This document shows, piece after piece, positions 30,829 through 41,173 of a stretch of 41,173 bases of DNA. Origin of the DNA: Gemmatimonadota bacterium (lineage in GTDB: Bacteria; Gemmatimonadota; Gemmatimonadetes; Gemmatimonadales; GWC2-71-9); NCBI GenBank assembly GCA_003246755.1, contig QKDC01000066.1:1-41173 (forward strand), in the 5' to 3' direction. Numbering within the stretch: the first letter of the stretch is position 1; every line of letters starts with the position of its first letter. The translations under genes were made by a program, and so were the position numbers. The notes below the pieces were generated by a model that saw only the letters and a list, made by a program, of their open reading frames with translations, did no database searches and was not told the origin of the DNA.

Positions 30829-30859
30829 TTGACTTCGGGTTTTGTTCGGTTTACATTTA
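30829..30859 (+). promoter_or_regulatory. promoter of zinc-ribbon/radical SAM unit
   Basis: TTGACT (30829-30834), 17 bases, then TACATT (30852-30857). Read in the Bacteroidota style it is TTG-N20-TAcaTTTA. The expected start point is near 30864, giving a leader of about 25 bases to the GTG at 30889. The operator-like dyad covers the spacer, the -10 and the start point. Confidence 0.6.
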
Positions 30860-30875
30860 CCGAATAGACACCGAA
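30834..30875. promoter_or_regulatory. four-half-site dyad operator (copy 1)
   Basis: Half-sites are TTCGGG 30834-30839, TTCGGT 30845-30850, ACCGAA 30859-30864 and ACCGAA 30870-30875. The two left sites are 11 bp apart as direct repeats, the two right ones mirror them, and the inner pair is separated by 8 bases. The whole 42 bp is a dyad centred at 30854.5. The geometry is identical to the copy before dnaE2. Confidence 0.8.
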
Positions 30876-30888
30876 GCGTGAGTGACCC

Positions 30889-31041
30889 GTGCCCCAGCCC
30901 CAGCCTTCTCCCGAACCGGGCCAAGACAACCCTCTTACCTCCCCCTCCGTCCTTCGGGTTTGCCCCGAATGCGCCGGGCCTCTGGCCCATGGCTCCGGCT
31001 GTATCACCTGTATCCAATGCGGCTGGGGACGGTGCGGGTGA
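30889..31041 (+). CDS. 50-residue zinc-ribbon protein (short ORF)
   Basis: GTG 30889 opens a 50-codon frame ending TGA 31039-31041. After a Pro/Gln-rich start it encodes VCPECAGPLAHGSGC, then ITCIQCGWGRCG. That gives C-x2-C and C-x2-C-x2-C-G-x3-C motifs, resembling the C-terminal zinc ribbon of B12-dependent ribonucleotide reductases and other stand-alone ribbons. The stop overlaps the GTG 31038 proposed for the radical SAM gene as GTGA. Placement directly behind a regulated promoter and the cysteine pattern argue it is real; the Shine-Dalgarno is weak. Function unknown; nucleic-acid contact or metal binding are possible. Confidence 0.6.
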   Translation: MPQPQPSPEPGQDNPLTSPSVLRVCPECAGPLAHGSGCITCIQCGWGRCG

Positions 31042-32150
31042 CACACGCCATCCAACTCCCTCTGCTCTCGCTTGCCGACGGCCCTCCGATCCTCGACCAA
31101 CGGGAGCGTGGGGGGGGCACCTCCTTCGTCGGGACACCCAGTCGGTCGGTCCTCAATCCTCCCTCGAGCACGGGGATGGGCTTCTGGTCGATCAACCCCT
31201 ATGTCGGCTGTGAGTTCGGCTGCAGCTATTGCTACGCACGCGACACGCATCGCTGGCTGGTGGAGCGCGCCGTCGCACGCATCGAGTTGGAGGTGTCTTC
31301 GTCCGATGAAGAACCGTCTTCAGACACGGCGCTGACCCAACTCACCTCGCTCTCTCCACCCGATGCCTTCGAGCGGCAGATCTTCGTCAAGACCGAAGTC
31401 GCCGACGTGCTCCGTCGCACCCTCGATCCCACCCGGATTGGCACCTCGGCGATCGTGATCGGGACCGCCACCGATCCCTATCAGCCGGCGGAGCGCCGAT
31501 TCACGCTCACGCGTCGCATCCTCCAGACGCTCCTCCCCTATCGTGACCTCACGATCGGGATCATCACCAAGTCGGCGCTGGTGACCCGCGACCTCGACCT
31601 CCTGGTCCCGCTCGCCGAACGTCACGACCTCCGTGTCAACCTCTCGCTCGCCACCACCAACGTCGACGTCCTCCGCAAACTCGAACCGCGCACACCCCTG
31701 CCCCACGCTCGGTTACGCGCCCTGCGTCTCTTGACCGCATCCGGCATTCACGCCGGTGTCATGCTCGCGCCGATTCTCCCCGGGATCACCGACGGATGGG
31801 ATAGCCTGGCCAGGGTGATGGAAGGAGCCAAGGAGGCAGGAGCCCGGTTCGTGAGTGGCATCCCGCTTCGGTTGGGAAAGACGGCACGCGAGCGACTCCT
31901 CGCCGTGCTGCGCCGAGAATTCCCGGAGTTGGTGTCACGGTACGAACAACATTACGGCAAGCGCACCAACGCCAGTTCGGCCTATCGTAAGGCTCTCGCG
32001 CGCCGCATTCGCCTGCTTCAGGAGGTCTACGGGTTTCCGGTAGCGCCCTCTCACGCGTCGGGCACCCGCCAACGCAACAGGGCCCCAACATCGGGGCCCC
32101 GTCGTGGTCGAGCGCGTTCGGTCAGCCGCCCAACGAGTCCGGCGGCTTGA
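31038..32150 (+). CDS. SplB-like radical SAM protein (Rv2578c/PA0069 type)
   Basis: The roughly 370-residue radical SAM enzyme has the cluster motif C-x3-C-x2-C in CEFGCSYCYARD. FVKTEVADVLRRTL, VIGTATDPYQPAERRF and ITKSALVTRDLDLL are typical of the SplB-related Rv2578c/PA0069 group, whose relatives include spore photoproduct lyase. The reaction is not established. I place the start at GTG 31038, overlapping the zinc-ribbon stop, with GGGGAC upstream; the frame remains open to GTG 30882, but that part is Pro-rich and non-conserved. The C-terminus runs over an inverted repeat and overlaps the convergent MetS-like gene by 29 bases. Confidence 0.85.
   Translation: MTHAIQLPLLSLADGPPILDQRERGGGTSFVGTPSRSVLNPPSSTGMGFWSINPYVGCEFGCSYCYARDTHRWLVERAVARIELEVSSSDEEPSSDTALTQLTSLSPPDAFERQIFVKTEVADVLRRTLDPTRIGTSAIVIGTATDPYQPAERRFTLTRRILQTLLPYRDLTIGIITKSALVTRDLDLLVPLAERHDLRVNLSLATTNVDVLRKLEPRTPLPHARLRALRLLTASGIHAGVMLAPILPGITDGWDSLARVMEGAKEAGARFVSGIPLRLGKTARERLLAVLRREFPELVSRYEQHYGKRTNASSAYRKALARRIRLLQEVYGFPVAPSHASGTRQRNRAPTSGPRRGRARSVSRPTSPAA
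32080..32099 (-). terminator. strong GC hairpin, possible terminator of the NSS-MetS unit
   Basis: A 7-bp perfect stem GGGCCCC/GGGGCCC with a 6-base loop lies 22 bases beyond the MetS-like stop on the minus strand and inside the 3' end of the radical SAM gene. There is only a weak TGTTG tract after it, so factor-independent termination is unproven. Confidence 0.4.
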
Positions 32151-32259
32151 TGATGGGATGGTCAGTCGGTGCCGTCATGACTCGGTAATAGCACCAGATG
32201 GCGAGCGACCAGACGAACGCGGTCGAAATGAGCAGTGTGAGCCAGCCTCCGGGTGTCAT
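32122..32259 (-). CDS. MetS-family small subunit of NSS transporter
   Basis: This 45-residue single-span protein reads MTPGGWLTLLISTAFVWSL, then AIWCYYRVMTAP, then a short Pro-rich tail. It matches the small MetS-type subunit found beside some NSS transporters (MetPS, methionine/alanine uptake). ATG 32259 has AGGGAGG upstream and lies 10 bases after the transporter stop. The longer open frame to 32427 runs inside the transporter gene and is ignored. Confidence 0.8.
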   Translation of the reverse strand: MTPGGWLTLLISTAFVWSLAIWCYYRVMTAPTDHPIIKPPDSLGG

Positions 32260-32269
32260 GATCCCTCCC

Positions 32270-33889
32270 TCAGCCTGTGGTGACGGAATCCGTATCGAGC
32301 GGATTCCGGTCGTCGATATCGAGTCCCGCCGCGCGCCACCGCTTGGTAGCCATCTGGACGGCGATGAAGAGCCCCACCAGGGTGACAATGATGAGCCCCA
32401 TGGCCAGCTGTGCACCCTGCGAATCACCGATCGCTCGAATGGAGGCAGGCAGGTTTTGGATCGAGAAGCCCACGAACACGATGATCAGATAGAGTGGCGC
32501 AACGTACTTCATGACGAAGCGCAGCACCCTCGGCAATTGAATCAGCGCCCCGGAGTGAATCTCCCGCCAGCCGCGGTCGATCCCGAAGACCCAGCTGAAG
32601 GCGATGATCTGCGATCCGGCCATCACGAAGATGAGGAAGGTCCCCACCCAGAAATCCAAGGTGCTCCAGAAAACGCCGTTACCGGTGAACCAGAGGGTCA
32701 TCGCCGACCCGACGAGACTGATCGCCATCACACCGCGCGTGGCCTTGCTGCGCTCGATGTCGAAGGCCTCCATCAGGAAGGCGACCGCGGGCTGGTACAT
32801 GGAGAGCGAACTGGTGATGGCGGCGAGGAAGAGCATCAGGAACCAGATGGCCCCGATGATGTTGCCGAACGATCCCATCTGCGCGAACACCACCGGCAGG
32901 GTGGTAAAGCCGAGCCCGAACGAACCGGTCTGCACGGCGGCAATGGTACCGGTCAGTCCCAGAAAGATGAACGAGGCGGTGAGGGTGATCATTCCGCCGA
33001 AGCCGACCTCGAACAGTTCGTTGGTGGCGGCGGCCGTGAGTCCCGAGAGCGCGACATCGTCACGACGCTTCATGTACGACGCGTAGTTCATGATGATGCC
33101 GAATCCGACCGAGATACTGAAGAAGATCTGTCCGGCGGCGGCGAGCCAGGTTTGGAAGTTCCCCAGCGCACTGAAGTCGGGGTTCCACATGTAGCCCAAG
33201 CCGTTTACCACATTCTGGTCGGGAGCGGCGGGGTCGGGTGTGCCCAGCGTCAGTACGCGGATCAACACGATCACGGCACAGACGGCCATCACCGGCATCG
33301 CGAAGGTGACGAATTTCTCGATGCCTTTCGAGAGGCCACGGAAGATCAGTGTGAGATTGATGGCGAAGGTGGCGATCCAGCAGAAGAGGGTGAACTTCGA
33401 ATCGCCCGTGAAGAGAATCCCGTCGCCCGTGGCTCCGGTATAGCCGTTATAGAAGGCCGCGGAGGTCGCCGACTGTTCGGCGATGGATGTCGTCGCGTCG
33501 ATCCCGATGCCTCCCGTCAGGTACTTGAGGAAGTACACCAGGGTCCACGACTCGATGAAGACGTAGTAGAAGGCCACCGCGAGCGGGATCATCACGCCAA
33601 CGACCCCAAAGTATCGGGCCCACGAACCGCGGCCGATGACACCCATGATGGCGGGGGCGGAGTGGAACCCCTTGGCGCCGCCGTAGCGGCCCATCGACCA
33701 TTCGGCCCACCCGATCGGGATGCCGAGCAGGAGGAGGGCAGAGAAGTAGGGAATCAGGAAGGCGCCGCCGCCGTTCATGGCGGCCTGGCCGGGGAAGCGG
33801 AGGAAATTGCCGAGACCTACGGCAGAACCTGCCACCGCGAGAATCACACCGATACGAGATCCCCATTCTTCCTTTTGGGAAGCGCTCAT
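32270..33889 (-). CDS. sodium-dependent NSS/SNF-family transporter
   Basis: The 539-residue membrane protein belongs to the LeuT-fold neurotransmitter:sodium symporter family. The TM1 signature WGSRIGVILAVAGSAVGLGNFLRFP contains the unwound sodium and substrate site. About 11-12 hydrophobic segments follow, with SVGFGIIMNYASYMKRRDD as the TM6-7 sodium region. With the MetS-like subunit it probably imports a small neutral amino acid. The start is set at ATG 33889 (MSASQKEEWGSR); the longer frame adds a Cys/Arg-rich leader overlapping the divergent polymerase gene. A sense-like 611-residue frame on the opposite strand is a shadow. Confidence 0.92.
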   Translation of the reverse strand: MSASQKEEWGSRIGVILAVAGSAVGLGNFLRFPGQAAMNGGGAFLIPYFSALLLLGIPIGWAEWSMGRYGGAKGFHSAPAIMGVIGRGSWARYFGVVGVMIPLAVAFYYVFIESWTLVYFLKYLTGGIGIDATTSIAEQSATSAAFYNGYTGATGDGILFTGDSKFTLFCWIATFAINLTLIFRGLSKGIEKFVTFAMPVMAVCAVIVLIRVLTLGTPDPAAPDQNVVNGLGYMWNPDFSALGNFQTWLAAAGQIFFSISVGFGIIMNYASYMKRRDDVALSGLTAAATNELFEVGFGGMITLTASFIFLGLTGTIAAVQTGSFGLGFTTLPVVFAQMGSFGNIIGAIWFLMLFLAAITSSLSMYQPAVAFLMEAFDIERSKATRGVMAISLVGSAMTLWFTGNGVFWSTLDFWVGTFLIFVMAGSQIIAFSWVFGIDRGWREIHSGALIQLPRVLRFVMKYVAPLYLIIVFVGFSIQNLPASIRAIGDSQGAQLAMGLIIVTLVGLFIAVQMATKRWRAAGLDIDDRNPLDTDSVTTG

Positions 33890-34017
33890 CGCACACTCGA
33901 CGATAGGGTGAAGGCCTTGCGCGGAACCGCTGCGCCTGGGGTGATCACGACAGGACCAGAAGCAAAGTACAGACGACCGGCACATCCGTCCACACATAAC
34001 CTTTTGCGGGTCGGCGG

Positions 34018-35202
34018 ATGCGACGCTCGATAATCTTCGTCGACCCCCCCGCCTTCTGCACCACCGTCGAGCGACTGGTGGCCCCGGCACTCCGGCATCG
34101 CCCCCTCGCGGTGGCCCCTCCGGGAGCCGATCGGGCTACCATCCTGGCACTCTCGCCGGAGGCCGAAGCCGCCGGGATCACCCGGGGTATGGCGGTTCGG
34201 CTGGCCCGGAAGGTCTGCCCCGATCTGATCCTCCTCCCCCCCAACCCTCGGCTCTATTCCCGTGCCTCCCGGGCGCTGCACGAGGTGCTCCAGCGGTATG
34301 CGCCCATCATCGAGCCACGGTGGTACGGTCACGCCTTCCTGGATGTCAGCGGGACGGAGCGTCTCTTCGGCACCCCCACCGACCTGGCTCGGCGGATTCA
34401 CCGTGAGGCACTGGAGAGTATCCGGCTCCCACTCACTGTCGGTGTGGCCACCAACAAACTGGTGAGTGAGGCCGCCACTAGGGTCGGACGTTCTGCTGGG
34501 GTGCCAAGCATGGAAGTGTGGCCGCTTGCCGTTCCTGCGGGCGACGAAGCTCCTTTCCTCGCTCCCCGACGGATTCTGGTACTCCCCGAAGTTCCCGATC
34601 CGATTCGACGGCAGCTCGACGATTACCAGATCGACCTGATCGGTGAGGTCGCCGGCATCGCCGAGCCCGATCTCTGTGCCGTGTTCGGCGGGGCGGGGCG
34701 TACCCTCCGCGCGCGGGCACGTGGCATCGATCCCCGACCGGTACTTCCTCCGGAGATTCGCTCGGAATACGAGATGGCCCACACGTTGGCGACCGACACC
34801 AACGACCTGGAAACACTCCACACCCTACTGAGACGATTCGCCGAACGACTGGGAAGGAGACTACGACAGCGAAGGCTCGCTGCCCGACGGATCGTCGTAT
34901 CGGTCGACTACGTCGACTTCACGACCGCCTCTCGGGGTGTATCCACCGAGGCGACCCTCGACACCGAACTCTGGCACGCCGCCACGCGCGCGCTTCGTCT
35001 GGCGATGAGCAAGCGGCTCGCCGTGCGCCGGATCGCCCTGTCTGCCCGGCGCCTGATAGAGGCGGACCCCCAACTCGGCTTCTGGGACCCCCCGGACCCT
35101 CCTCGTCCGGCGGTACTCCAGCAGGCGATCGACCAGGTCTCTGGGCGGTGGCGAGGGGGCTCGCTTCGACCGGCAGCCCCGAAAAGGCCCCGCGCGGCAT
35201 GA
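34018..35202 (+). CDS. imuB: ImuB-like Y-family DNA polymerase homologue, catalytic site degenerate
   Basis: The 394-residue Y-family polymerase fold has N-terminal IIFVDPPAFCTTVE (first metal ligand D9 kept). The segment equivalent to SIDEAFLDVTG reads WYGHAFLDVSG, so the acidic pair is G104/H105. VGVATNKLVSEAATR, the finger/thumb helix-hairpin-helix region (GEVAGIAEPDLCAVFG) and the little-finger domain follow. QLGFWD at 352-357 resembles a beta-clamp-binding motif. Loss of catalytic acids with a retained clamp motif is the ImuB pattern: a scaffold recruiting DnaE2. No ImuA gene is adjacent. The four-half-site operator is not found upstream. Confidence 0.75.
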   Translation: MRRSIIFVDPPAFCTTVERLVAPALRHRPLAVAPPGADRATILALSPEAEAAGITRGMAVRLARKVCPDLILLPPNPRLYSRASRALHEVLQRYAPIIEPRWYGHAFLDVSGTERLFGTPTDLARRIHREALESIRLPLTVGVATNKLVSEAATRVGRSAGVPSMEVWPLAVPAGDEAPFLAPRRILVLPEVPDPIRRQLDDYQIDLIGEVAGIAEPDLCAVFGGAGRTLRARARGIDPRPVLPPEIRSEYEMAHTLATDTNDLETLHTLLRRFAERLGRRLRQRRLAARRIVVSVDYVDFTTASRGVSTEATLDTELWHAATRALRLAMSKRLAVRRIALSARRLIEADPQLGFWDPPDPPRPAVLQQAIDQVSGRWRGGSLRPAAPKRPRAA

Positions 35203-35291
35203 AAAAGGTTGGGGTCCCTGCTGAGGAAGTGTGTGGGTTGCTGGAAACCCGGGACATTGAACGCGGCCGATACCGCAGAGCCACAGGGAAC

Positions 35292-35323
35292 TTGCCGGAC
35301 GGAGCCCCCCGTCACTACCTTTG
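35292..35323 (+). promoter_or_regulatory. rpsU promoter, Bacteroidota-like
   Basis: TTG (35292-35294), 21 bases, then TACCTTTG (35316-35323), matching TTG-N19-21-TAnnTTTG. In a sigma70 reading it is TTGCCG-N18-TACCTT. It lies about 45 bases before the rpsU start in a non-coding gap. Confidence 0.5.
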
Positions 35324-35366
35324 TGGTCTTCGCACGCTGGGGTGCGCCAACGAAAGTATGGAGTGA

Positions 35367-35588
35367 ATGATCGAAGTAACGATTGGTGAAAACGACCGGC
35401 TCGAAGGAGCCCTCAAGGCCTTCAAGCGGAAGGTCGCCAAGTCCGGCATCCTGAAGGATCTCCGCCGGAAGCGTCATTACGTGAAGCCCAGCGAGGCTCG
35501 ACAGCTCAAGGCCGCCGCGGCCCGACGCCGCCAGCGCCGAAGCCCCAAGGGTCAGCGAGGCCCGAGAGGCGCGAAGACCAAGGCCTAG
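35367..35588 (+). CDS. rpsU: 30S ribosomal protein bS21
   Basis: The 73-residue basic protein begins MIEVTIGENDRLEGALKAFK. It contains KSGILKDLRRKRHYVKPSE and a Lys/Arg-rich tail, all characteristic of bS21, which sits near the anti-Shine-Dalgarno end of 16S rRNA and aids initiation. GGAG precedes the ATG. It appears monocistronic, with its own promoter and an intrinsic terminator 30 bases after the stop. The 164 bases between the ImuB-like gene and rpsU hold only this promoter. Confidence 0.96.
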   Translation: MIEVTIGENDRLEGALKAFKRKVAKSGILKDLRRKRHYVKPSEARQLKAAAARRRQRRSPKGQRGPRGAKTKA

Positions 35589-35610
35589 CGGTCGCGAGGC
35601 ACCCAGAAGA

Positions 35611-35856
35611 TCATGACAGAGCACCCACCGGGTGCTCTTTTTTCGTTCGACCTCCGGGAGCGACGCGCAGCCGCTGGAAGAGAACTCTGGACGCAGCCGC
35701 GACGTCGTCGACCGCCGAGTCGAAAGCGACACGGTTCGCCTGGGAGGGAACCCGGAAGCCACTGATCTTGCGAACGAATTGCAGCGCGGCATCATGGAGT
35801 TCGGCGTCGGTCGGTGGGCGGTCGGGCTGTCTCAGTCGCTTGATGTTACGGCACAT
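35611..35856 (-). CDS. DUF2277 family protein
   Basis: The 81-residue protein starts MCRNIKRLRQPDRPPTDAEL. ALQFVRKISGFRVPSQAN and AVDDVAAASRVLFQRL are diagnostic of DUF2277, a small conserved family of unknown function. ATG 35856 gives the conserved N-terminus; the longer frame is spurious. Its last codons (encoding KKEHPVGALS) are formed by the rpsU terminator hairpin read from the other side. Confidence 0.9.
   Translation of the reverse strand: MCRNIKRLRQPDRPPTDAELHDAALQFVRKISGFRVPSQANRVAFDSAVDDVAAASRVLFQRLRVAPGGRTKKEHPVGALS
35619..35643 (+). terminator. intrinsic terminator of rpsU
   Basis: An 8-bp perfect stem GAGCACCC/GGGTGCTC with a 3-base loop ACC (35619-35637) is followed by six T (35638-35643). 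It is a textbook terminator that also lies within the 3' coding end of the convergent DUF2277 gene. Confidence 0.92.
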
Positions 35857-35963
35857 GATTCCCCTGCCAATCCAGGAAGGTGCGCACCGGGCGCTGGGAT
35901 ACGAGACACTGTAGCTTACGCCCGCAAAGTAACGCCGGACGCGAACACCCCCCAAAGGACCGC

Positions 35964-36536
35964 ATGAGTTACTACTGTGACGAGGCTCCCGGTCACCCCT
36001 GGCACGGACCCTACCACGATACGGAGTACGGGTTCCCCCTCACGGATGACGCCGGACTGCTTGGCCGCCTGATCCTGGAAATCAACCAGGCGGGGCTCTC
36101 CTGGCTCACGATTCTCAAGAAGCAGGATAACTTCCGGCGGGCGTACGAGGGGTTCGACCCCGAGCGGCTGGCACGATACGGTGCTCGGCAAAAGAAACGA
36201 CTCTTGAGCGACGCCAGCATCATCCGAAACCGCCTCAAGGTCGAAGCGGCCATCGCCAACGCCAAGACCGTTCTGGAGCTGCGAAAGGAACATGGCTCGT
36301 TTCACAACTGGCTCCTGGCCCATCATCCGAAATCCAAAGCCGAGTGGGTCAAACTATTCAAGGCCACATTCCGGTTCACCGGAGGAGAGATCGTGGGCGA
36401 GTTTCTGATGAGCATTGGGTTTCTACCGGGTGCCCACCGGCCGGACTGCCCGGTGTTCAAACAGATCGCCAAGCAGAAACCGGCGTGGATGACCGTGTCG
36501 GCGACACCCCGACGCCGTGGGAAGGCCTCGAGTTGA
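35964..36536 (+). CDS. tag: DNA-3-methyladenine glycosylase I
   Basis: The 190-residue Tag enzyme removes 3-methyladenine from alkylated DNA. C5 and H18 (in PYHDTEYG), together with the later H-x3-C in HRPDCPVF, form the usual zinc site. LEINQAGLSWLTILKK carries the pocket glutamate. ATG 35964 has AAAGGA upstream; the longer frame is non-conserved. The next gene (alcohol dehydrogenase) starts 10 bases after its stop, so they may be cotranscribed. Confidence 0.95.
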   Translation: MSYYCDEAPGHPWHGPYHDTEYGFPLTDDAGLLGRLILEINQAGLSWLTILKKQDNFRRAYEGFDPERLARYGARQKKRLLSDASIIRNRLKVEAAIANAKTVLELRKEHGSFHNWLLAHHPKSKAEWVKLFKATFRFTGGEIVGEFLMSIGFLPGAHRPDCPVFKQIAKQKPAWMTVSATPRRRGKASS

Positions 36537-36546
36537 GAGGGGTACC

Positions 36547-37647
36547 ATGACCCGCCAGTACCGAGCAGCGGTCATGCCCGGCCCCGGACACCCGATCGAG
36601 ATCCAGGAACTCGACGGCCCGGAGCTCGAACCAGGAGCCGCTCTCCTGCACACGCTCTATTCCGAGGTCTGCGGTACCGATGTCCACCTGCACCACGGTC
36701 GGCTGGCCGGCGTACCCTATCCGATCATCCCGGGACACGTATCGGTGGGCACGCTGGCGGAACTTCGAGGCGCGATCACGGATGTCGATGGAACCCCGCT
36801 ACGCGAAGGCGATGTGGTGACCTTCCTCGACGTCCACGAGACCTGTGGCGAGTGCTGGTATTGTCTGGTCGCGAAGCAAACCACGAGATGTCCGGCGCGG
36901 AGGGTGTATGGCATCACCTATGGTGTCGAAGACGGCCTGCTTGGTGGCTGGTCGGAAGCCATCTGGATGAAGCCCGGCGTGCGCATGATCCGGCTTCCAT
37001 CCGACCTCGCGCCGGAAACTTTCATCGGTGGAGGCTGTGGTCTAGTGACCGCTCTCCATGCTGTCGATCTCGCCGGCATCAAGCTCGGCGAATCGGTCGC
37101 GGTGCTCGGCGTTGGTCCCGTGGGTCAATCGGCAATCGCGTTCGCCGCTCTTTCCGGCGCAGGCGAGGTGATCGCAGTGGGTGACCCCGAGAACAGACGT
37201 GATCTCGCCTTACGCATGGGGGCAACAAAGACAGTCGGTCTCGATGCACCTCCGAATGATCGTGCCGTTGAGATCCGCGGTCTCACGGGCCGAGGTGTGG
37301 ATATCGTGATCGAAGCATCGGGTGACCCCTCCGCGGTGAGTCAGGCCCTCGATATGGTTCGCGATGGGGGCCGCGTCATCGTCGTCGGTCAGTACACCGA
37401 CGGAGGCGAGGTAGCCCTCAATCCCCATCTCCAGATCAACAAGAAGCACGTCACGATTCAGGGCTGCTGGGGCTCGGACTATTCCCATTTTCATCGCGCG
37501 GTGGGCCTTGTGACACGTAACCAATCGACAATCCCCTGGGGGGAGCTGGCGGGCCAGCGGTTCTCCCTCGACCAGGCCGGCCACGCGCTGGCAGCGGTCG
37601 AACGACGAGATGTCACCAAGGCGGTCCTCGCGATTGGTGCCAGATGA
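36547..37647 (+). CDS. zinc-type MDR alcohol/polyol dehydrogenase
   Basis: The 366-residue medium-chain dehydrogenase has catalytic zinc Cys42 (EVCGTDVH) and His64 in PGHVSVG, where the usual GHE glutamate is valine. Structural zinc cysteines are C100, C103, C106 and C115. The NAD motif is VLGVGPVGQSAIAFA. It probably oxidises a polyol or sugar alcohol. The start ATG 36547 is preceded by GAGAGGGG. It overlaps the aldolase/SDR fusion gene as ATGA, suggesting a shared sugar or polyol pathway. Confidence 0.87.
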   Translation: MTRQYRAAVMPGPGHPIEIQELDGPELEPGAALLHTLYSEVCGTDVHLHHGRLAGVPYPIIPGHVSVGTLAELRGAITDVDGTPLREGDVVTFLDVHETCGECWYCLVAKQTTRCPARRVYGITYGVEDGLLGGWSEAIWMKPGVRMIRLPSDLAPETFIGGGCGLVTALHAVDLAGIKLGESVAVLGVGPVGQSAIAFAALSGAGEVIAVGDPENRRDLALRMGATKTVGLDAPPNDRAVEIRGLTGRGVDIVIEASGDPSAVSQALDMVRDGGRVIVVGQYTDGGEVALNPHLQINKKHVTIQGCWGSDYSHFHRAVGLVTRNQSTIPWGELAGQRFSLDQAGHALAAVERRDVTKAVLAIGAR

Positions 37648-39623
37648 AGAGTCGCTGGAACGATTCAGACGCAAAGGCCCTCGGCGACGACCCGCTCGGA
37701 CTCAGGGTGTATACCTCACGACTCCTGGGCGCCGAACCTTCGCTGGTCCTGCATGGCGGTGGGAATACGTCGGTCAAGACGACACTCGAGAACCTGCACG
37801 GCGAACGGGACTCGGTCATCTACGTCAAAGGAAGCGGCTGGGACCTCGCAACGATCAAGCGCGAGGGCTTCGCCCCAGTCAGACTTGAACCCCTTCGGCG
37901 TCTGGCCGATCTCCCTTCCCTCTCCGACCGTGACATGGTGCGCGCGCAACGCTCGGCGATGCTCGACCCCGATGCCCCCACCCCGTCGGTCGAGGCCATT
38001 CTCCACGCCATCATCCCCTTCCACTTCGTGGATCACACCCACGCCGACGCGGTGGTCACGATCAGTAACACCGAGGATGGGGAATCGAGGATACGGGAGA
38101 TCTATGGCGACCGTGTCCTCGTGGTCCCCTATGTCATGCCGGGATTCGTGCTCGCCAAAGCGGTCGCGGACCTGACCCGGAACCTGGATTGGACTAAGTG
38201 CGAGGGAATGGTCCTGCTCCACCACGGCGCCTTTACCTTCGCTGACGATGGCCGCGCCAGCTACGAGCGGATGATCGGTCTCGTGACGGAAGCGGAGGAC
38301 TACCTCGGCAAACACGCCCCGATGCCAGTCGCATCCTCCACCGACAAGCCCCTTCCCCGGCGCCTGTTGCCGGAGTTGGCCGAGCTGCGCCAGGCAGTCG
38401 GTGAGGCCCGTGGCAAACCGGTGATCACGCGGCTCGAGACGGGCCGCGATGCAGTCGCGTTCGCAACTCGTCCCGATGTCGCTGACATCGCAACCCGGGG
38501 ACCTTTGACCCCGGACCACGTGATCCGGACTAAGCCCATCCCGCTCGTGGCCCGCGGAGACTGGCGCACCGAGGTCGACCGGTATGTGGCGCGGTACTCA
38601 GACTATTTCGCGCGCCACGCCTCACCCGAACTCACTCAACTGGACCCCGCACCCCATTGGGTCGTCTGGCCCGAAGTGGGACTGGTCACCACTGGCTCAT
38701 CGGTCCGTGAAGCGACGATCGTCGCCGACATCGCAAGGCATACCACTCGAGCCATCGCGCTGGCCGAACAACTCGGCGGTTGGCAAGCGCTGCCCGAGAA
38801 CGATCTCTTCGATGTCGAGTATTGGGAACTGGAGCAAGCGAAGCTCAAGGCCGGCCGAAAGGAACCACCTCTCGCAGGCAGGGTGGCGCTGGTCACCGGT
38901 GCGGCCAGCGGCATTGGTAAAGCATCTGCCCAGGCGCTCCATGCAGCCGGTGCATCGGTGGTGGGTACTGACATCAACCCTGATGTCTCGGCAATCCTCC
39001 TCGGCGAAGGCCTAGTCGGACTGGTCGCAGATGCCACCGATCCCGACGCCGTCGGGGCATCGATCGAAGAGACGATCAGACGATTCGGTGGACTCGACAT
39101 CTTGGTCACCAACGCGGGTGTCTTTTCACCGAGTCATCGAATCGACGAGATCCCCGACGACATCTGGGACCAGAGTCTTGCGCTCAACCTCTCGGGACAC
39201 CTGTATGTGATCCGCGCAGCCGTCCCCTATCTCCGGCTCGGTTTCAGTCCGTCGGTCGTCGTCATCGGATCGAAGAACGTCCCCGCCCCAGGACTCGGCG
39301 CTGCTTCGTACTCGGCGGCCAAAGCCGGGCTCACTCAACTGGCACGAGTTGCGGCGCTGGAGTTGGGCAAGGATGGCATTCGGGTGAACGTGCTCCACCC
39401 TCACGCTGTCTTCGACACGGGTGCCTGGACACCCGAGGTGGTCGACGAGCGGGCACGCCAGTACGGGATGACCTCCGAGGAATACATCCGGAACAACCTT
39501 CTCGGCGTGGAGATCACCACCGACGATGTAGCCGCGGCGGTACTGGCACTGGTGGGACCCACATTCTCCAAGACGACCGGAGCCCAGATCCCGATCGACG
39601 GCGGCAGCGACCGGGTGGTGTAA
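37644..39623 (+). CDS. bifunctional class II aldolase / short-chain dehydrogenase (RhaEW-like)
   Basis: The 659-residue fusion has an N-terminal class II aldolase domain with phosphate-binding GGGNTSVK (38-45), zinc ligands H131 and H133 in FVDHTHAD, and LLHHGAFTF. The C-terminal short-chain dehydrogenase has TGAASGIG near residue 418, NAG in VTNAGVF and the catalytic Y556-x3-K560. This order matches rhamnulose-1-phosphate aldolase/lactaldehyde dehydrogenase fusions, which cleave a sugar phosphate and oxidise the aldehyde. No rhamnose isomerase or kinase is in the window, so the substrate is tentative. It is coupled to the alcohol dehydrogenase gene; the dnaE2 operator follows. Confidence 0.87.
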   Translation: MKSRWNDSDAKALGDDPLGLRVYTSRLLGAEPSLVLHGGGNTSVKTTLENLHGERDSVIYVKGSGWDLATIKREGFAPVRLEPLRRLADLPSLSDRDMVRAQRSAMLDPDAPTPSVEAILHAIIPFHFVDHTHADAVVTISNTEDGESRIREIYGDRVLVVPYVMPGFVLAKAVADLTRNLDWTKCEGMVLLHHGAFTFADDGRASYERMIGLVTEAEDYLGKHAPMPVASSTDKPLPRRLLPELAELRQAVGEARGKPVITRLETGRDAVAFATRPDVADIATRGPLTPDHVIRTKPIPLVARGDWRTEVDRYVARYSDYFARHASPELTQLDPAPHWVVWPEVGLVTTGSSVREATIVADIARHTTRAIALAEQLGGWQALPENDLFDVEYWELEQAKLKAGRKEPPLAGRVALVTGAASGIGKASAQALHAAGASVVGTDINPDVSAILLGEGLVGLVADATDPDAVGASIEETIRRFGGLDILVTNAGVFSPSHRIDEIPDDIWDQSLALNLSGHLYVIRAAVPYLRLGFSPSVVVIGSKNVPAPGLGAASYSAAKAGLTQLARVAALELGKDGIRVNVLHPHAVFDTGAWTPEVVDERARQYGMTSEEYIRNNLLGVEITTDDVAAAVLALVGPTFSKTTGAQIPIDGGSDRVV

Positions 39624-39630
39624 AAGCATC

Positions 39631-39672
39631 TTCGGGTTATATTCGGGTTACCGTACCCGAAGGCAACCCGAA
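39631..39672. promoter_or_regulatory. four-half-site dyad operator (copy 2), dnaE2
   Basis: Half-sites are TTCGGG 39631-39636, TTCGGG 39642-39647, CCCGAA 39656-39661 and CCCGAA 39667-39672. Spacings are 11, 14 and 11 bp between half-site starts; the dyad is centred at 39651.5 and is 42 bp long, exactly as in copy 1. It ends two bases before the dnaE2 ATG. A -10-like TATATT (39638-39643) lies inside; no good -35 is visible. Confidence 0.8.
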
Positions 39673-39674
39673 TC

Positions 39675-41173
39675 ATGTCGTTCACGCATCTCCACCTCCA
39701 CTCCCATTTCTCCTTCGGCCGGGGAGCCTCGAGCCCCGATGCGCTGGTCGAAACCGCCATCACCCGCGGGTTCACCACCCTGGCCTGCACCGATACGAAC
39801 GGTGTCTACGGCGCGGTGGAATTTCAGCAAGCGGTCGAGTCCGCTGGGCTTCGGTCGATCCTCGGCGTGCACCTGCTCGCCGATGGTCAGGAAGCGGTGC
39901 TCCTCGCCGAAGACGAGCATGGATGGGCCGCGCTCTGCCGAGCGGTGACTCGACTCCATTGGGCGGAAGTGAACGCCGAGCGGTTTTCGCTGGGCGTCCA
40001 GCTGGCCACCGATCGTCGCGGGCTGGCCATCCTCATTCGTGACGTGGAGTTGCTGGAGCGGTTGGTGCAGACGAGTGGCGCCGACGGTCTCTATGCCGAA
40101 CTGCGTCCGGGTCGCGAGCGACACGCGGTGTTGGCAGCGGCCCGCCGGCTCGGCATCTCTCCCGTGGTCACCGGTGCGGTCATGTTTGCCGATCCGGAAG
40201 ACTGGAACCGCCACCGGTTGTTGCGCGCCATTGCGCTCAACACGACGCTCTCTGCGCTCCCGGCCGAAGAGGTGTCACCGCGCGAGGCATGGCTTCGACC
40301 GGTCACTGAGATCGAGCGGTACTTCCCCGACTGTCCCGAGGCGCTCGTCAATGCGGCGGAGGTTGCCGATCGGTGCCGCTACCGCATTCCTATCGGCGAT
40401 CGCATCGTTGCACCACGCCTCGCCCACCATGCCGGAGCGTTTGACCGTCTGCGAACCCTGACCTACGAGGGTGCGAGACGGCGTTACGGAACGGTGGCCC
40501 CCATCACTCGCGACCGGATCGAACACGAACTCGCGATCATCGCGATGAAGGGGTTCGCCGATTACTTCCTCGTCGTTCGGGACATCGTCGACCACGGGCC
40601 GACCCACTGTGGGCGAGGGTCGGTCGCCAACTCGGTCGTCTCGTACTGTCTCGGCATCACCCACGTCGATCCACTCGAGGCCGGGCTTCTCTTCGAGCGA
40701 TTCCTCAACCCCGAACGCCGGGATCCGCCCGATATCGATCTCGACTTTCCGTGGGACGAACGCGACCATGTCCTGGCCTATGTCTTCCGTCGCTATCCGC
40801 ACCCCAGAGCGGCGATGGTATGCAACCACAACTGTTTTCGTCTCCGAGGGGCGCTCCGAGAAGTCGCCAAGGTGCACGGCCGCCCCAATGGCGAGATCCG
40901 TGAGGTCACCAAGCGTATCCCGTGGTTTCATGAAGGGGCTTCCCTCGAACACCTCCTCGCCACGCATCCCAATTTTTCGGCGCTGGACCTCCCTCAGCAG
41001 TGGCAGGCCTTCGCCCGGCAGGCCGAGCCATTGGTGGGAGTCCCTCGACACATGTCGCTTCATCCGGGAGGGGTGGTGATCGTTCCGACGGCGCTCACCG
41101 ACTACGTCCCCACCCAGCCCGCGGTCAAGGTACTCGACGGTGCGCCCGACCTCACGGTGCCTGCCATCCAATT
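39675..41173 (+). CDS. dnaE2: DnaE2-type error-prone DNA polymerase III alpha, 5' part
   Basis: The frame is open to the window edge (499 codons seen of roughly 1000). The N-terminal PHP domain starts FTHLHLHSHFSFGRGASSP, with TDTNGVYGAVEF next. The C-family polymerase palm shows CGRGSVANSVVSYCLGIT and PDIDLDF, with the catalytic aspartates near residue 355. DnaE2 rather than DnaE1 is inferred from the PHP sequence style, the ImuB-like gene nearby and the operator. It would perform translesion synthesis in the DnaE2-ImuB mutasome. The operator leaves no room for a standard Shine-Dalgarno, so initiation may be weak or near-leaderless. Confidence 0.8.
   Translation, partial: MSFTHLHLHSHFSFGRGASSPDALVETAITRGFTTLACTDTNGVYGAVEFQQAVESAGLRSILGVHLLADGQEAVLLAEDEHGWAALCRAVTRLHWAEVNAERFSLGVQLATDRRGLAILIRDVELLERLVQTSGADGLYAELRPGRERHAVLAAARRLGISPVVTGAVMFADPEDWNRHRLLRAIALNTTLSALPAEEVSPREAWLRPVTEIERYFPDCPEALVNAAEVADRCRYRIPIGDRIVAPRLAHHAGAFDRLRTLTYEGARRRYGTVAPITRDRIEHELAIIAMKGFADYFLVVRDIVDHGPTHCGRGSVANSVVSYCLGITHVDPLEAGLLFERFLNPERRDPPDIDLDFPWDERDHVLAYVFRRYPHPRAAMVCNHNCFRLRGALREVAKVHGRPNGEIREVTKRIPWFHEGASLEHLLATHPNFSALDLPQQWQAFARQAEPLVGVPRHMSLHPGGVVIVPTALTDYVPTQPAVKVLDGAPDLTVPAIQ

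Follow-up and report, generated by a model that had tools for sequence, protein, structure and literature searches.

TTCGG-N6-TTCGG boxes paired upstream of a radical SAM unit and dnaE2 are very probably LexA operators in Gemmatimonadota

Two 42-bp elements of the same design stand before a radical SAM unit and a dnaE2 gene on a 41,173-nucleotide stretch of DNA from a Gemmatimonadota bacterium (hereafter, the window), which raises the question of which regulator recognizes them. A preliminary description had read them as a candidate operator of the damage response, LexA-type or other, with an unusual tandem form. Its eight half-sites and their start-to-start spacing of 11, 14 and 11 bp in both copies were borne out when we re-read the window: the exact pattern TTCGGK-N5-TTCGGK-N8-MCCGAA-N5-MCCGAA occurs twice on the plus strand, at 30834-30875 (operator 1) and at 39631-39672 (operator 2). 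Each operator consists of two 16-bp boxes TTCGG-N6-TTCGG, a direct repeat with an 11-bp period, and the second box is inverted. Operator 1 is composed of a forward box at 30834-30849 and an inverted box at 30860-30875 (box-to-box distance of 26 bp) and operator 2 of a forward box at 39631-39646 and an inverted box at 39657-39672. As had been proposed, operator 1 lies on a promoter-like sequence, a candidate sigma-70-type promoter TTGACT-17-TACATT (30829-30857, plus strand) defined by consensus match only, and operator 2 adjoins dnaE2, ending 2 bp before the ATG at 39675. In the first box of operator 2, a TATATT sequence falls within the spacer and the second half-site.

Unless stated otherwise, the genes described here are on the plus strand. 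The dnaE2-type gene (39675-41171), encoding an error-prone DNA polymerase III alpha subunit, is cut by the contig end and appears to continue on contig C53. The radical SAM unit indeed lies downstream of operator 1, as described, but its first ORF is a small one of 50 amino acids (30889-31041) with a C-terminal zinc ribbon, CPEC-x9-CITC-IQCGWGRCG. The radical SAM gene itself (31038-32150), a member of the PA0069/Rv2578c (SplB-like) group, probably starts near 31038, at a GTG overlapping the stop codon of this small ORF (GTGA). Of 33 radical SAM loci scanned, 30 have a similar zinc-ribbon ORF in this position, and the three loci without it belong to f2 genomes. The NCBIfam model closest to this ORF corresponds to the C-terminal tail of B12-dependent ribonucleotide reductase (E-value of 3e-6 here and of 3e-7 for one relative, far below the model cut-off), a sequence likeness that may offer a lead to its function. 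A reverse-strand symporter gene separates the radical SAM gene from a Y-family (IMS) DNA polymerase gene (34018-35202); a 611-aa plus-strand ORF at 32198-34033 was rejected as a gene because it is the shadow of this symporter gene. No exact box was found directly upstream of the Y-family polymerase gene of the window, and the genes lying between the operators gave no imuA-like Pfam match. Among the matches listed in other genomes, the Gemmatimonadales MAG BD_FP_2_bin.9 (L098:2572) presents an additional box just before its IMS polymerase gene.

We then searched for the 42-bp pattern beyond these two sites. In 100 dinucleotide shuffles of the window, no match was obtained even at three mismatches. 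Across the 3.15-Mb genome, nothing but operators 1 and 2 matches the 20 fixed bases when up to three mismatches are allowed, while the reversed control pattern yielded none at the same threshold; a search of this genome for four direct repeats was also negative. The sites are thus not scattered at random over the genome, the observation that the preliminary description had named as speaking against its proposal. The fixed geometry that it had put forward applies to both copies of the window; in relatives, however, the gap between the inner TTCGG and CCGAA varies from 7 to 12 bp. What is conserved is not the whole 42-bp element but the 16-bp direct repeat TTCGG-N6-TTCGG, which is also found singly. 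This genome contains 21 exact 16-bp boxes, 4 of them within the two operators, relative to 6 for the reversed pattern, and the background density of exact boxes is about 0.002 per 300 bp. One exact box (G000:C30:6306-6321) is located about 65 bp upstream of recA in the recA-recX locus.

Since lexA is usually repressed by its own product, the box that LexA recognizes can be read from the lexA promoter. We found an exact box upstream of lexA in all of the 53 readable genes of relatives (families f1, f2, f3 and f7 of the class), and this box was doubled in 47 of them. Every box in these promoters is in the orientation of the gene, and only same-direction boxes were observed. The doubled boxes are 24-28 bp apart, start to start, in 43 cases and 35-37 bp apart, about one helical turn more, in the other 4. 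In G347, from another family of the class, lexA likewise presents a doubled box. The profile of the LexA proteins of the clade matches solved LexA structures over its full length. Based on the usual autoregulation, we infer that the box shared by these promoters is LexA's own.

The same box is conserved at the genes that the two operators precede. Each of the 34 radical SAM loci presents an exact box upstream of this gene, in 8 cases as part of an exact inverted double. The best match to a -10 element (mostly TATATT) is found at offset +7 for about half of the forward boxes and for seven of the eight inverted doubles; the others have it at offset +16 to +18, and inverted boxes mostly begin 15-19 bp past the -10. 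Close relatives present single boxes of either orientation before this gene, and the inverted pair looks like the sum of two box positions that relatives also use singly. A perfect inverted double heads an operon of radical SAM, ImuB-like and dnaE2 genes in G016. Among the matches listed, named Gemmatimonadota MAGs present the inverted pair before the radical SAM gene, in some cases with an ImuB-like gene and dnaE2 after it, and the loci of the same architecture, with proteins up to 71% identical, come from Gemmatimonadales MAGs. Concerning the polymerases, a box is located close before the start in 6 of the 10 dnaE2 genes most similar to that of the window (its own gene included), and dnaE2 of G347 is directly preceded by an exact inverted double. 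The box was found upstream of none of the 12 replicative dnaE1 genes that were read, some of which lie close to a contig end and have little sequence upstream.

The check suggested in the preliminary description, enrichment of the motif before lexA, recA and dnaE2, was positive: for lexA in relatives, for recA in this genome and for dnaE2 among its close homologues. Because the box is found at lexA, radical SAM, recA and dnaE2 genes but not at dnaE1, we consider it very probable that both 42-bp elements are LexA (SOS) operators, whose 11-bp-period direct repeat would be recognized by the LexA of this clade. The proposed damage-response operator is thus supported by comparative sequence evidence, and its unusual tandem form corresponds to a pair of predicted LexA boxes, the first lying over the -10 and the second immediately past it. 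Two dimers or a tetramer had been envisaged; two LexA dimers on two boxes would suffice, and a tetramer is unnecessary. The reading as a tetramer or an OmpR-type regulator was dropped once the lexA promoters proved to carry the same box.

These positions suggest how the operators might work. In the mutasome promoters, the forward box would sit on or next to the -10 and the inverted box just downstream, near the start point. The two half-sites of a box lie one turn apart on one face of the DNA, and the boxes of the window are centered about 26 bp (2.5 turns) apart, so that two LexA dimers would occupy roughly opposite faces around the -10. With both bound, RNA polymerase would be occluded. Upon DNA damage, RecA filaments would trigger the self-cleavage of LexA and the operators would be released, switching on the zinc-ribbon/radical SAM operon and dnaE2 and thereby repair and error-prone synthesis. 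A more general scheme can be put forward tentatively: the LexA of Gemmatimonadota may work as paired dimers, bound head to tail and placed around the -10 at a mutual distance of about 26 bp (2.5 turns), and the orientation of the boxes may separate the lexA promoter (always tandem) from the mutasome promoters (inverted) and change the strength or timing of induction. We regard this scheme as possible but rather doubtful.

One observation could point to another regulator. We did not find LexA in the assembly of this genome (95.8% complete, 190 contigs) using PF01726, PF00717 and a clade-specific profile at E-values up to 10. A single weak PF00717 match was rejected as LexA: it has no LexA-profile match and sits near glycosyltransferase and HprK-related genes. 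LexA was likewise not found in G016, G007, G012 and G031, and yet the sites are perfect in this genome and in G016, and dnaE2 of G012 retains an exact box upstream. It is conceivable that a different damage regulator took over the sites after the loss of lexA in this species, and the trp region, where many relatives carry lexA, is here a continuous trp cluster without lexA (based on trpD/trpC synteny). This fits such a replacement, but it does not tell gene loss from an assembly gap. The simplest reading, an assembly gap, is likely, because truA, which neighbors lexA in some relatives (lexA is followed by truA in G008), was also not found in this assembly, in a search run without a positive control. 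Moreover, the other four genomes are only 61-88% complete, and the same box stands at lexA itself throughout the class. We therefore consider the replacement of LexA by another regulator unlikely.

It is even less probable that the mutasome operators are served by a dedicated LexA paralogue whose targets are marked by the inverted arrangement. Many f2 genomes and G347 possess a second LexA-like gene, and inverted pairs are found at mutasome genes whereas lexA promoters present same-direction boxes only. However, ten of these second-copy genes were read and no exact TTCGG box was found in roughly 600 bp around them, and most f1 relatives have one strong LexA match. In addition, the single boxes of either orientation at the radical SAM genes of close relatives indicate that orientation does not separate two regulators. 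Finally, the four-half-site pattern also occurs in other phyla and in repeats of two viral contigs, as might be expected of a repeat element or a chance arrangement without any regulatory role. Both viral matches fall within local repeats and have no SOS gene in their vicinity, and the many Bacteroidota matches among those listed in the named-contig scan mostly have other central gaps. Such an origin is extremely improbable given that both 42-bp sites of this genome precede damage-tolerance genes and that the box is kept at all 34 orthologous radical SAM promoters. LexA operators thus remain our preferred reading.

The predicted box shares features with several known LexA boxes. Like the alphaproteobacterial box, GTTC-N7-GTTC (PMC8565304, PMC3323433, PMC9578287), it is an 11-bp-period direct repeat with a TTC core in each half and is located at SOS genes. 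In contrast, its half-site reads TTCGG with no conserved base ahead of TTC (only 0.17 bits before the first TTC), and boxes are paired at lexA promoters and at some of the mutasome promoters. The Gram-positive box, CGAAC-N4-GTTCG (PMC9578287), has the TTCG core in common in one half-site, but it is a palindrome of inverted halves whereas the halves are head-to-tail within each box here. The LexA of Balneolaeota recognizes a direct repeat, TTACACATATTTTWTACATA, and its regulon counts a radical SAM protein among its members, along with recA and translesion polymerases (PMC7739468); the repeat form and the regulon are alike, but the sequence is unrelated. SOS regulation of the radical SAM protein SplB has been described in several species (PMC8565304). 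The imuA-imuB-dnaE2 mutagenesis cassette (reviewed in PMC9578287) also places dnaE2 and a Y-family partner under a damage box. Here, however, the zinc-ribbon ORF and the radical SAM gene lead, no imuA was identified, and the genes of the window are divided between two promoters that have an operator each.

In open papers, we found no description of a LexA box in Gemmatimonadota, Gemmatimonadetes or Gemmatimonas. We also found the paired head-to-tail-repeat form of the operator described in no open paper; judging from sequence comparison, these pairs are almost certainly LexA docking sites. The box constitutes a clear candidate SOS box for Gemmatimonadota, from which the SOS regulon of a large and mostly uncultured group becomes predictable, and it would be a further example of direct-repeat recognition by LexA. 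The single, tandem and inverted two-box promoters provide a natural set for asking what role the second box and its orientation play.

Several other sites were observed in the course of this analysis. Outside genes, the remaining boxes of this genome include one near a Ser/Thr kinase gene, an exact single box 62 bp upstream of the polyphosphate kinase gene ppk (L201:3344; G000:C10:11343), which may be due to chance, and an exact box, TTCGGGGTATATTCGG, before a YjbR/TfoX-like gene (L200:4984-4999; G000:C53) on the contig that apparently continues dnaE2. A DUF72 gene adjoins this last region, and a DUF72 gene is likewise found near the mutasome of G306. In G022, where no radical SAM gene was detected, a near-match operator (L009:7624) with a typical left box, TTCGGGTTATATTCGG, lies beside transposase-like remains. 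The LexA motif of Patescibacteria (Sanchez-Osuna 2017) is cited in PMC7739468 among those of LexA proteins that evolved direct-repeat recognition. In our data, the lexA gene of a Candidatus Kerfeldbacteria (Patescibacteria) is preceded by three TTCGG-N6-TTCGG boxes (L070:6126-6211). This suggests that the same LexA specificity may exist in a distant phylum.
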